Assembly (NCBI RefSeq): GCF_001468225.1
Contig: NZ_LNRU01000004.1
Span: 372,001-436,000 of the forward strand
DNA from: Sphingopyxis sp. H053
GTDB taxonomy: Bacteria; Pseudomonadota; Alphaproteobacteria; Sphingomonadales; Sphingomonadaceae
Direction of reading: 5' to 3'
Length of the DNA stretch: 64,000 nucleotides
How positions within the stretch are numbered: position 1 is the first letter of the stretch; each line of letters begins with the position of its first letter. The notes beneath the pieces were generated by a model that saw only the letters and a program-made list of their open reading frames with translations, was not told the origin of the DNA and ran no database searches. Shown piece after piece: positions 12,083-27,619 of the stretch. Both the position numbers and the translations under genes were made by a program.

Positions 12083-12754
12083 TCAACTTTTGTCGGTTGC
12101 GGCCTCTTCGGGAACGGCGAGGCCGTTCTTCAGCATCACCGGAACCTGGCTGAAAGTGAAGAGGAAGGAGAGGGCGGTGACGCCCCAGACCTTGATCGTC
12201 AGCCACAGGTCAAAGCTCATCTGCTTCGCCTGGATCATCTCGTACATCACATGGTTGGCGATGCCGAGCGTGGCAAAGAAAATCCCCCAGTTGCGCGACA
12301 GCAGCAGCCAGCCGCGGTCCGTGAGCCCCTCGAGCGCCGATTGCAGCAGATATTTGAGCATCGGCTTTTTGAACCAGTAGCCGCCGAGCAGCAGCGCGGC
12401 GAAGGCGCCATAGATAATCGTCGGCTTCATCACGATGAAGCGCTCGTCGTGGAACCAGATGGTCAGCGCGCCGAAGCCGAGGACGAGGATGCTCGACATC
12501 CACAGCATCGGCGAGATCTTGCCGAGCTTCCATTTCGACACGACCATCGCGATGACGATCGCGACCATGAAGGCCACGGTGCCCTTGATCGCCGCGGTCG
12601 TCGCGGCAAACGCGCCTTCGCCGCCCGACGAGAATTTATAGGCGAGGAAGAAGACGAGCAAAGGCCCGAAATCGATCACGAAGTTGAGCCAGCCATGCTT
12701 CGCCGGCGGCGGCGCCGGGACCGACTCGGGGCCAGTGGGAAGCACGTCGCTCAT
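12083..12754 (-). CDS. yciB: Septation protein A / inner-membrane protein YciB
   Basis: A 223-aa inner-membrane protein with five or six hydrophobic segments. NFVIDFGPLLVFFLAYK and SKWKLGKISPMLWMSSILV match the IspZ/YciB family, linked to cell-envelope organisation and septation. An N-terminal proline-rich extension of about 20 residues (PTGPESVPAPPPAKHG) precedes the domain. The ATG overlaps the ftsY stop by four bases, so it is the last gene of the dapF-mtaB-ftsY-yciB chain. Confidence 0.93.
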   Translation of the reverse strand: MSDVLPTGPESVPAPPPAKHGWLNFVIDFGPLLVFFLAYKFSSGGEGAFAATTAAIKGTVAFMVAIVIAMVVSKWKLGKISPMLWMSSILVLGFGALTIWFHDERFIVMKPTIIYGAFAALLLGGYWFKKPMLKYLLQSALEGLTDRGWLLLSRNWGIFFATLGIANHVMYEMIQAKQMSFDLWLTIKVWGVTALSFLFTFSQVPVMLKNGLAVPEEAATDKS

Positions 12755-13677
12755 CGGATATTTCCTGCAATAATTCCCGCGATTTCGTCCGCATCGAACG
12801 GGCGAAGGTCGTCGATGGTTTCGCCGATGCCGATCGCGTGGATCGGAAGCCCGTGGCGCTCGGCGGCGGAGACGAGCACGCCGCCGCGCGCCGTGCCGTC
12901 GAGCTTCGTCATCACCAGCCCGGTGACGCCCGCAACCTCACGGAACACGTCGATCTGCGACAGCGCATTCTGCCCCGTCGTCGCGTCGAGCACGAGCACG
13001 ACATCGTGCGGCGCCGCGGGGTTGAGGCGGCCGAGCACGCGCTTGATCTTGGCAAGCTCGTCCATCAGCTCGCGCTTGTTCTGGAGCCGCCCGGCGGTGT
13101 CGACGATCAGCACGTCGATGCCGGTCGCGGTCGCCTGCTTCACCGCGTCGAATACGATGCCCGCGCTGTCGCCGCCTTCGGGCCCCGCCATGATCGGCAC
13201 GCCGAGCCGCTCGGCCCAGACCTTCAATTGCCCGATCGCGGCGGCGCGGAAGGTGTCGCCTGCGACGAGCATCACGCCATAATCCTGTTCCTGGAACAGA
13301 TGCGCGAGCTTGGCGATCGTGGTGGTCTTGCCCGATCCGTTGACCCCGATCACCAAAATGACCTGTGGGCGCGGAAAGGCGTCGATGTCGAGCGGTTCGG
13401 CGACCGGGCGCAACACCGCGGCGATTTCCTCGGCGACGACCTTGCGGAGTTCCTCGGTGCCATTCGCGGCGATGTCGCGGCGTTCGGCGAGGCGGCTGCG
13501 GATACGGTCGGCCATCGCGGGGCCAAGGTCGGCGGTGATCAGCGCTTCCTCGATGCGGTCGAGATCATCCTCGTCGAGCCGCGCCTTGCCGGTCAGCCCT
13601 GCGAGATTTTCGCCGAGCCGCTCCGACGTGCGGCGAAATCCGCCGAGCAGCCGTTCGCTCCAGCTTTGGCCGGTCAT
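12751..13677 (-). CDS. ftsY: Signal recognition particle receptor FtsY
   Basis: SRP receptor GTPase that docks ribosome-Ffh complexes at the inner membrane. At 308 aa it is the short form, lacking the acidic A domain of E. coli FtsY. The four-helix N domain covers about residues 5-85. The G domain has P-loop GVNGSGKT at 111-118, DTAGRLQNK and TKLDGTARGG. It overlaps both mtaB and yciB by four bases. Its partner gene ffh is about 4 kb away on the opposite strand. Confidence 0.97.
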   Translation of the reverse strand: MTGQSWSERLLGGFRRTSERLGENLAGLTGKARLDEDDLDRIEEALITADLGPAMADRIRSRLAERRDIAANGTEELRKVVAEEIAAVLRPVAEPLDIDAFPRPQVILVIGVNGSGKTTTIAKLAHLFQEQDYGVMLVAGDTFRAAAIGQLKVWAERLGVPIMAGPEGGDSAGIVFDAVKQATATGIDVLIVDTAGRLQNKRELMDELAKIKRVLGRLNPAAPHDVVLVLDATTGQNALSQIDVFREVAGVTGLVMTKLDGTARGGVLVSAAERHGLPIHAIGIGETIDDLRPFDADEIAGIIAGNIR

Positions 13678-14987
13678 GCCGCGATATCCTTTGCTTCGAT
13701 TTGGGTGGCGATCATGCGGTCGCCGTCACGCGCGCCGAGGCGCACGTCGATGATGGTGCCGGGCGCCGCGGGTGCGGTCAGCGCCACGGCGGCGAAATTT
13801 TCGGCATGGCCGCTGACGCCGTCGCGCTCGACGAGCATCGATGCGGTTCGGCCGATCTGCGTTTCGAGCCAGTCCTGCCGCCGCCGCGCATTGGCGTCGC
13901 GCAGGATTGCGGCGCGCTCGCGGGCGATGGTGCGCCCGACCTGCGGCATCCGCGCGGCGGGCGTCCCGGCGCGCGGGCTGTACGGAAAGATGTGGCCAAA
14001 GACGATGTCGCAATCGTCGATCAGCGCCAGCGAGTTCGCGAACATCGCGTCATCCTCGGTCGGAAAGCCTGCGATCAGGTCGGCGCCGATCGCGATCTCG
14101 GCGCGCGCGGCCTTCAACCGCTCGATCAGTGCGAGGGCGTCGGTGCGGCGGTGGCGGCGCTTCATGCGCGTCAGCACCATGTCATCGCCCGCCTGCAGCG
14201 ACAGGTGGACATGCGGCATCACGCGCTTTTCCTGCGTCAGCAGCGCGAACAGCGCGTCGTCGATCCGGTCGGGGTCGAGCGACGAGAGGCGAAGCCGTTC
14301 GACCGGCAGCACCAGCAACGCCTCGACCAGCGCGGCCAAGGTCGTGTCGCTGTCGTCGCCATAGCTGGCAAGATCGACCCCGGTCAGGATGATCTCGCGC
14401 TGCCCGCGATCCAGCGCGGTTTGCGCGGACGCGACCACCGCATCGACGCTCGCCGATCGCGCCGTCCCGCGCGCCAGCACCGTCGCGCAAAAGGTGCAGC
14501 TGTGCGAGCAACCGGTCTGGACCCCGAGAAAAGCGCGCGCATGATCGGCGCCCGAGAGGGCGGGGGCGTAAGGCGTCGTGTCCCCGCGAAGGCGGGGACC
14601 CATCTCCGATGGGTTCGAATTTGCACCGGCGGGAGATGGACCCCCGCCTTCGCGGGGGAAGGGGACAGGATTTGAAAGGTAGCTCTGAGCCAAGCCCTTT
14701 GCATCATTGGATACCACCCGCGCGCCCATCGCGGTAAAAACATCGCGCTCCAGCTCCGCCGCGCACCCGGTCACCACAACCTCGGCGCCCGGCCGCTCGC
14801 GCAGCGCGCGGCGTACCGCCTGCCGCGCCTGCCGCACCGCTTCGTCGGTCACCGCGCAGCTGTTGAAGACGATCGTGTCGCGCGCGCCCGCAGCCTTGAC
14901 GGCCGCACGAACCCCTTCGCCCTCGGCGATGTTCAGCCGGCAACCGAAATTGACGACCTCTTGCCGGTCGGCGAGGGAAGCGCTCAT
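13674..14987 (-). CDS. mtaB: tRNA t6A37 methylthiotransferase MtaB, with a repeat-derived insert
   Basis: Radical-SAM enzyme that converts t6A37 of tRNA to ms2t6A. The 437-aa protein has an N-terminal UPF0004 domain with cluster cysteines C16, C44 and C75, the radical-SAM motif C160-x3-C164-x2-C167 (CSHSCTFC), and a C-terminal TRAM-like region. Residues about 110-136 (PREGGGPSPAG to MGPRLRGD) are encoded by a palindromic repeat present elsewhere only between genes; it is inserted in frame in the linker between the first two domains. All catalytic residues remain, so the enzyme is probably active. It overlaps dapF and ftsY by four bases each. Confidence 0.93.
   Translation of the reverse strand: MSASLADRQEVVNFGCRLNIAEGEGVRAAVKAAGARDTIVFNSCAVTDEAVRQARQAVRRALRERPGAEVVVTGCAAELERDVFTAMGARVVSNDAKGLAQSYLSNPVPFPREGGGPSPAGANSNPSEMGPRLRGDTTPYAPALSGADHARAFLGVQTGCSHSCTFCATVLARGTARSASVDAVVASAQTALDRGQREIILTGVDLASYGDDSDTTLAALVEALLVLPVERLRLSSLDPDRIDDALFALLTQEKRVMPHVHLSLQAGDDMVLTRMKRRHRRTDALALIERLKAARAEIAIGADLIAGFPTEDDAMFANSLALIDDCDIVFGHIFPYSPRAGTPAARMPQVGRTIARERAAILRDANARRRQDWLETQIGRTASMLVERDGVSGHAENFAAVALTAPAAPGTIIDVRLGARDGDRMIATQIEAKDIAA
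14581..14660. repeat. Palindromic repeat, family B, inside the mtaB coding sequence
   Basis: The left arm begins TCCCCGCGAAGGCGGGGACC and ends CATCTCC (14581-14607). The right arm is GGAGATGG followed by the complementary GC-rich core (14632-14658). The intergenic copy at 27507-27610 shares the GGGAGATGGACCCC flank and the same arm structure. The frame is open through the element, which adds about 27 residues to MtaB. Confidence 0.9.
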
Positions 14988-15790
14988 CCGAACTGCGCCC
15001 AGTCGGTCTCGCCCTCATAGACGCGCGTCGCGGCGCCGCTCATCACGATCGGCTCGCCGGGCGCCCAGCGGATGACGAGGTCGCCGCCGGGCAGCGACAC
15101 CGTCACCGGCGACTGGACAAGGCCGGCGCGGATTGCCGCGACCGCGGTCGCGCACGCGCCGGTTCCGCACGCCTGCGTCAGCCCGACGCCGCGTTCCCAG
15201 ACGCGCAGTTGGAGTTGATTTTCGCCGTCGAGGCTTGCGACATTGACGTTGACGCGCTCGGGGAACAGCGGGTCGGTCTCGATCCGCGGGCCGAGCTCGT
15301 CGAGCGCGACGGCGTCGGCCTCGGGCACGAAAAAGACGATATGCGGATTGCCGACATTGACCCCGGCGCCATGCTCCAGCTCGTCCCATGCGACGGGCAT
15401 GTCGCGCGTGTCCATCGGCATCGCGAGCGGGATATGCTCCCAGTCGAACATCGGCTCGCCGAGTACGACTTCGGCACCGCCGTCGGCGGGGGTGACGCGC
15501 AGCATCCCGCCCAGCGTCTCGATCACCGCGGGCTTGCCGATCAGCGTCGCGACGCAGCGCGTTGCATTGCCGCAGGCCTCGACCTCGCCGCCGTCGGCGT
15601 TGAAGATCCGCATCTTCACGTCTGCACTATTTGACGGTTCGAGCAGGATCAGCTGGTCGCACCCGATGCCATGGCGGCGGTCGGCGATCGCGTGCGCGCG
15701 CGCCGGCGTCATCTCGACGCCATGCTCGCGCGCGTCGATCACGACAAAGTCGTTGCCGAGGCCGTGCATCTTGGTGAAGCGGTCTGCCAT
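14984..15790 (-). CDS. dapF: Diaminopimelate epimerase
   Basis: Interconverts LL- and meso-diaminopimelate for lysine and peptidoglycan synthesis. The 268-aa length is normal. The two catalytic cysteines are present: C73 in EACGNATRC and C208 in QACGTGAC. N-terminal MHGLGNDFVVID is the family signature. It overlaps the mtaB start by four bases and appears to be the first gene of the dapF-mtaB-ftsY-yciB chain. Confidence 0.97.
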   Translation of the reverse strand: MADRFTKMHGLGNDFVVIDAREHGVEMTPARAHAIADRRHGIGCDQLILLEPSNSADVKMRIFNADGGEVEACGNATRCVATLIGKPAVIETLGGMLRVTPADGGAEVVLGEPMFDWEHIPLAMPMDTRDMPVAWDELEHGAGVNVGNPHIVFFVPEADAVALDELGPRIETDPLFPERVNVNVASLDGENQLQLRVWERGVGLTQACGTGACATAVAAIRAGLVQSPVTVSLPGGDLVIRWAPGEPIVMSGAATRVYEGETDWAQFG

Positions 15791-27493: not shown

Positions 27494-27506
27494 AAGTAGA
27501 GTTGGT

Positions 27507-27610
27507 GTGCCCCTGCGAAGGCAGGGGCCCATCACCTAAGGTTCCGGCACCATGCCGCGGTTCTTTTGAGTCGCGACGGCGGGAGATGGACCCCTGCCTT
27601 CGCAGGGGTA
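27507..27610. repeat. Palindromic intergenic repeat, family B, intergenic copy
   Basis: Left arm CCCCTGCGAAGGCAGGGGCC (from about 27510) and right arm GGGAGATGGACCCC plus the complementary core (27581-27608). The same family is found inside mtaB at 14581-14660. A half copy of family A follows directly, making a composite element between asd and the DDAH-like gene. Confidence 0.88.
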
Positions 27611-27619
27611 CGGCTTCGC

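Follow-up and report, generated by a model that had tools for sequence, protein, structure and literature searches.

How does a mobile palindrome come to form part of the reading frame of a tRNA-modifying enzyme, and has this happened once or many times? The question arises at mtaB (13674..14987, minus strand) in the window, a stretch of 64,000 nucleotides from a genome of 5.13 Mb in 26 contigs that its relatives place in Sphingopyxis. The gene encodes a tRNA t6A37 methylthiotransferase of 437 amino acids. A preliminary description of this DNA had reported a palindromic repeat lying in frame within mtaB, and the minus-strand frame indeed continues unbroken through the repeat, a REP dimer at 14578-14661. 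That description called the gene essential-looking; MtaB (YqeV) is dispensable in B. subtilis. We examined the element, its relatives elsewhere in the genome, and the state of the same site across the genus and the family.

Results

The top NCBIfam model for the product is TIGR01579, at 347.6 bits against the model's cut-off of 357. The protein has both the UPF0004 domain (residues 11-85; 14733..14957, minus strand) and the Radical_SAM domain (residues 156-322; 14022..14522, minus strand), each by domain profile match, together with the cluster cysteines expected of MtaB. The insert, at about residues 106-138, sits between the two domains, so that the proposed location at a domain linker is correct. 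Likewise, the iron-sulphur cysteines are retained as claimed, with Cys 44, 75, 160, 164 and 167 invariant among 48 MtaB proteins compared and Cys 16 present in at least 90% of them. On both flanks of mtaB the intergenic space is zero, as the gene overlaps dapF (14984..15790, minus strand; TIGR00652, 255 bits) by 4 bp at 14984-14987 and ftsY (12751..13677, minus strand; TIGR00064, 310 bits) by 4 bp at 13674-13677.

The linker, from ...AKGLAQSY to PALSG (14565..14678, minus strand), comprises 38 codons. Close relatives (G021, G027, G047 and G061) do lack the insert, as had been suggested for checking, and have only 12-13 linker residues. The earlier figure of about 27 added residues (110-136) was thus right about the insertion and wrong about its size, the net gain being 25-26. 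The dimer itself spans 84 bp (14578..14661) and consists of two facing 25-base arms, GTGTCCCCGCGAAGGCGGGGACCCA (14578..14602, plus strand) and, inverted, TGGACCCCCGCCTTCGCGGGGGAAG (14637..14661, minus strand), with a 34-base spacer between them (14603..14636) that by eye resembles the spacer of the inverted (A2) copies of other species. In mtaB the dimer, in the orientation that we call class A1, would be translated as PREGGGPSPAG..MGPRLRGDT. The segment 14570-14672 folds at -34.9 kcal/mol (z -4.7), and one of 200 shuffles was equally stable.

Repeats of this kind do disturb assembly, and in another genome of the genus, G022, the assembly is broken exactly at the mtaB linker (L152/L153), the L153 piece bearing a REP-B insert. 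An error of annotation or assembly is nonetheless barely credible as the source of the arrangement, and is largely refuted for the genus. The domains on either side of the insert are in one frame, there is no sign of a frameshift, and similar in-frame inserts recur in many assemblies, including the single-contig genomes G004 and G071.

The arms resemble CGTC REPs, which are dispersed, repeated and mostly inverted dimers with a stem of 8-9 bp, a loop of 4-5 bases and an unpaired CCA tail. In mtaB, GTCCCCGC and GCGGGGAC pair around GAAG (8 bp and 4 bases), the arms terminate in CCCA and TCCA, and the mtaB-type REP is also dispersed, repeated and mostly found as inverted dimers. According to the structural description in PMC3733652, however, the first two stem pairs of CGTC REPs are "almost invariably" A-T, and the terminal unpaired motif is CGTC (or TGTC, CCTC). 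The mtaB copy has G-C and then T-A, which makes it at best a variant subfamily of CGTC REPs. As to the terminal motif, it begins with GTGTCCCC on one side, where GTC is pairable with the tail GAC, and lacks the motif on the other. A second REP subfamily, which opens with plain CGTC (CGTCACCCCCGCGAAGGCGGGGGTCC and similar; L010-L014), is co-resident in the same genome.

The mtaB-type subfamily has 14 arm matches in the window's genome, at eight or nine places. Among these places is an intergenic relative within the window (27505..27612) that had been described as matching the mtaB element; the match holds for the arm (32 bp, two mismatches) and fails for the spacer, which is different. Among all these places mtaB is the only one inside a recognizable gene, by a test (an ORF spanning the match by 60 amino acids on each side, then Pfam) that insertions near gene ends would escape. 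The idea that such repeats spread into genes generally is therefore not borne out in this genome. We scanned ten ORFs that span copies of REP-A, the family of classes A1 to A3, in this genome and among the copies of G008, G064 and G071. Nine matched nothing in Pfam, and the tenth (L215) has a domain to one side of the repeat but not to the other. Among the plain-CGTC REPs L008-L014 and the L007 copy, an ORF spans L012 alone.

We found no match to the tyrosine transposase profile PF01797 (Y1_Tnp) in the window's genome, while 15 of 80 genomes of the genus have matches. Among the five genomes richest in REP-A, G062, G064, G071 and G073 have none; the fifth, G008 (L310), which has the most REP-A matches of all, shows a partial Y1_Tnp match with an internal stop. 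Mobilization by a RAYT is therefore rejected for the window's genome, although a helper may act in some others, such as G008. The pattern agrees with the report that CGTC REPs seem to be without a dedicated transposase (Di Nocera et al. 2013, PMC3733652), and the mtaB-type elements, too, would move without one.

We looked for MtaB in 80 genomes of the genus and read 72 mtaB linkers. Left out were G065, G067 and G075 (orthologue not found), G012, G044, G058 and G074 (divergent MtaB, REP not seen by eye) and G022, whose linker is split between contigs. A REP, a remnant or, in two cases (G005, G025), an uncertain remnant was present at the linker in 46 of the 72, the strict arm pattern being positive in 40. 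The remaining 26 genomes have short linkers, with 12-18 residues between ...AKGL.xSY and Y.PALSG. The single isolated insertion pictured in the preliminary description is thus ruled out.

Text patterns assigned the inserts to five classes. Class A1, the window's orientation, was found in 7 genomes, class A2, of opposite orientation and read as VSPRRRGPISG...GDGPLPSQG, in 16, and class A3, with a longer spacer, in 5; by eye, A2 is the reverse complement of A1, spacer included. Class B (13 genomes) is an unrelated REP dimer (CTTCGACAAGCTCAG..., read as STSSARTE...FALSLSKG). Class D (5 genomes) is decayed or uncertain, and includes G005 and G025 on length, since these are only vaguely REP-B-like. 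Linkers with an insert or remnant are 18 to 51 residues long. In G029 and G038, A1-like flanks enclose a dimer reduced to one arm, still in frame; by eye, these forms are scars of deletion between the arms. The linker of G070 (L021) contains a small palindrome (GTGTCGGGAGTCACGTGCCTCCCGACAC) in frame within one REP arm, a repeat inside a repeat. Inspection by eye revealed no target duplication at the mtaB inserts.

These states are scattered over the tree of the locus. On a FastTree of the locus minus the linker (75 tips), the classes required 35 changes, REP family 27 and insert versus short linker 16, against means of 41.9, 34.6 and 22.7 with shuffled labels; 0, 2 and 1 of 1000 shuffles, respectively, were as low. 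Because the changes are fewer than under shuffled labels, linker class is inherited, yet its turnover is fast. Sister pairs differed in class in 12 of 23 cases; where FastTree support was at least 0.94, they did so in 5 of 13. The differing pairs include G062/G064, in which the orientation changes, and G046/G038, in which the REP family does. Within the window's own clade, A1, A2 and short states occur side by side.

Genomes with REP-A in mtaB have more REP-A elsewhere than short-linker genomes (p = 0.0026), and the same is true of REP-B (p = 0.0004); REP-B counts are also higher in B-class than in A-class genomes (p = 0.019). For these comparisons counts were entered by hand, with up to two arm matches deducted for the mtaB copy. 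On average, the mtaB insert was nearest to its own genome's copies in all three genomes tested (26 copies), with mean similarities of 0.860, 0.865 and 0.860 versus 0.826-0.846 for the copies of the other two genomes. The inserts would thus appear to be drawn from local repeats. Several results speak against the explanation that we favour below, among them the inheritance of linker class and the want of a visible target duplication noted above and, further on, the bases common to A1 and A3, the excess over an even spread and the slow change of the inserts. Three more belong here. The A or B state is not significantly set by the genomic A/B ratio (p = 0.33), median REP-A is higher in B-class genomes (15) than in A-class genomes (7), and the single closest sequence to the G071 insert is the mtaB insert of G042 (0.919; best own copy 0.895).

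The last of these bears on a different reading of the scatter, in which few insertions occurred and linker alleles were then exchanged between species by homologous recombination. A1 and A3 alleles of distant clades have bases in common adjoining the element inside the linker, which leaves room for short-tract exchange, and over the 90 bp immediately upstream the flanks differ somewhat little within classes A3, A1 and B. Over all classes, however, the nearest 90 bp gave no significant similarity (123 and 85 of 500 permutations as low on the two sides), and no class effect extends past 90 bp (159 and 500 of 500). Since the flanks of same-class species are not more similar, transfer of mtaB in long tracts is disfavoured; from 90 to 900 nt downstream, same-class pairs were less alike than in 500 of 500 permutations. 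Moreover, the different repeat families of other genera, described below, must be separate arrivals. Given how closely the G071 insert matches that of G042, and given the partial Y1_Tnp match of G008, we trust the favoured explanation slightly less and exchange slightly more, though we still regard exchange as an unlikely cause of the scatter as a whole. Part of that scatter may go back to a single old insertion that some lineages retained and others lost, or to the exchange of short tracts.

Whatever the number of events, the linker is a hotspot. With all REP-A dimers, as counted by one pattern, spread evenly over 10% of each genome, 0.04 would be expected in the 72 linkers; REP-A was observed there in 28 genomes. 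Shared descent cuts the number of events but leaves this contrast standing. Near-neutrality alone is insufficient for such an excess, which calls in addition for a preference for this target or for selective keeping.

Insertions gather on this one linker across the family. We searched 298 family genomes, 291 of them outside the genus, and examined 90 linkers from outside the genus, namely 30 loci plus 60 picked by hand, mostly, though not strictly, as the best-scoring against L093. Most MtaB proteins of this sample have a segment in the linker region that we call V.DIM. REP-like inserts were present in 12 of 25 linkers without V.DIM and in none of 65 with it (Fisher p = 2e-8; p = 0.0003 for stems of at least 12 bp only, 6/25 versus 0/65; both values are inexact, as the species compared are related). 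Six of the 12 inserts have stems of 12-21 bp, reached by no shuffle of 100; in L218, L219, L220, L278, L293 and L305 the stems are short (6-9 bp), and these inserts were classed as REP-like by eye. The 65 V.DIM linkers contain no palindrome beyond chance. Their longest stem is 9 bp (L243 and L269, with 5 and 10 of 100 shuffles as long), and a REP-arm pattern match in the V.DIM gene L238 is part of no palindrome.

The inserts outside the genus belong to several REP-like families. That of L090/L222 opens with plain CGTC, the L222 linker containing a plain CGTCATTCCCGCGAAGGCGGGAATC dimer, and B-like inserts occur in L218, L219, L220, L235, L252 and L305. A CCCAGCGAACGCTGGG family is represented in L258, and also in L278 and L303, a CCCCTCCCTGGAAGGGAGGGG family in L290 and a CCCCGGATCAAGTCCGGGG arm in L293; part of the L278 insert matches the L258 element. 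The L258 and L290 elements are repeats, matching their home genomes 70 and 63 times. Counting each family once per genus gives, by eye, ten combinations in six genera. In one genus, g29, three REP families are found at the mtaB linker in four species (L258, L278, L290 and L293). The linkers of L103 and L297 are expanded without an evident palindrome, and the latter has an AEAEAE..PAPAP run.

What the insert does as protein can be judged from structure prediction and substitution rates. AlphaFold2 gave the window's MtaB a mean pLDDT of 85, with values below 50 at residues 1-6, 113-135 (the insert) and 267-276; the insert peptide is thus predicted to be disordered. For the V.DIM protein L094, block means over residues 91-130 were 88, 85, 59 and 82. 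Summed by hand over five species pairs, pN/pS is about 0.75 in the insert (27.2/456.3 over 13.8/173.7) and about 0.14 in the radical-SAM part (66/2742 over 172/1008); the pair G016/G056 was dropped from the sums, both members already being in other pairs. Given this difference, the peptide appears little constrained, and the insertion would be nearly neutral for the protein.

It could instead be that a longer linker is selected as protein, restoring length or contacts gone with the V.DIM segment. Inserts are indeed seen only in MtaB without V.DIM, and each orientation of REP-A is translated in a single frame though most alternatives are open too (as judged with an imperfect sorting of the copies into orientations). 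A single frame per orientation is, however, equally compatible with a fixed insertion phase, shared descent or selection. The peptide sequences differ, the linkers vary in length over the range given above, and with the relaxed pN/pS and predicted disorder of the insert we find protein-level selection highly improbable.

As a whole the insert changes slowly, at about 0.065 per site, below the adjoining synonymous rate of 0.171, which hints at youth, homogenization or constraint at the DNA level. The last of these would follow if the REP were kept as nucleic acid, as a message hairpin (for processing, stability or ribosome slowing) or a gyrase site, where the overlaps of mtaB with dapF and ftsY leave room. 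The arms remain strongly paired, and in 5 of 75 loci another REP-like arm lies outside the linker, about 1.2 kb upstream. REP-A matches number just two, three and two in the whole of G003, G004 and G010, and in each of these genomes one of them lies in mtaB. On the other side, 26 of 72 species have no REP at the linker, and a substitute elsewhere in their loci was sought and none seen in about 1.5 kb on each side (less at contig ends). Unrelated REP sequences in both orientations occupy the site, and REPs are absent from all 65 V.DIM genes. We therefore consider a role as nucleic acid rather unlikely.

Discussion

On balance, and with some reserve, we favour the following explanation. A CGTC-like REP dimer, drawn from the host genome's own REP pool, would land in the UPF0004/radical-SAM linker of MtaB and be translated there as a disordered, nearly neutral peptide. 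In MtaB lineages without V.DIM the linker would be free of structure and so form a recurrent landing site; it may be the one stretch of the overlapping dapF-mtaB-ftsY cluster that accepts DNA with no damage to a protein. REPs of different families and of either orientation would arrive, replace each other and decay, and removal would proceed in frame through deletion between the arms.

A stronger version, which we hold only tentatively, makes the MtaB linker a harbour that is targeted or maintained by an active process, where unrelated REP families form a replaceable RNA-plus-peptide module across the family. Equally tentative is what this would entail: such families, for which no dedicated transposase is known, would be guided to a single codon interval or selectively preserved in it, and would exchange with one another there.

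In whichever form, recurrent landing in the V.DIM-less linker would make mtaB a case of a mobile palindrome turned protein sequence outside Rickettsia, and it suggests a rule, that losing an ordered linker segment opens the way for REPs. For the study of how CGTC REPs move, sister species that differ in REP content, orientation or family provide natural before-and-after pairs, and with the reading frame as a filter these offer a route to the ends, targets and helpers of the elements.

In-frame REPs within genes are not in themselves new. The preliminary description had held them to be unusual outside Rickettsiales, a view that PMC3733652 contradicts: it reports REPs within genes of many bacteria, naming genes of S. 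alaskensis, and hence of Sphingopyxis itself. It also describes in-frame REPs at presumed linkers, and two Xanthomonas species with different REPs at about one recB site. We found no paper on REPs in mtaB, although Additional file 3 of PMC3733652 may already list S. alaskensis mtaB. The mtaB hotspot is thus an apparently new and unusually strong case of in-gene REPs.

The mtaB elements can be compared with three known systems. With the RAYT-mobilized GTAG REPs (REPtrons) they share the form of short, palindromic, non-autonomous elements and dimers, but unlike in the RAYT-REP system the window's genome has no tyrosine transposase match. Like the palindromic elements of Rickettsia (RPEs), they lie in frame in a gene whose homologues include insert-free ones, and the resemblance noted in the preliminary description is reinforced by PMC3733652, which identifies RPE-6 and RPE-4 of R. 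conorii with the CGTC-1 and CGTC-4 REPs. RPEs, however, are about 150 bp long and occur in many unrelated genes of one genome (PMC10969869), whereas here several repeat families occur at one linker of one gene in many species. The likeness to CGTC REPs as presented in PMC3733652 extends to short palindromes, inverted dimers, the CCA tail, the lack of a dedicated transposase and in-frame copies encoding 20-30 residues, in a group that is mostly alphaproteobacterial. What sets the present case apart is the gene, as mtaB is absent from the main text of that paper, and, from our analysis, a hotspot that is shared by several REP families across genera and linked to a missing protein segment.
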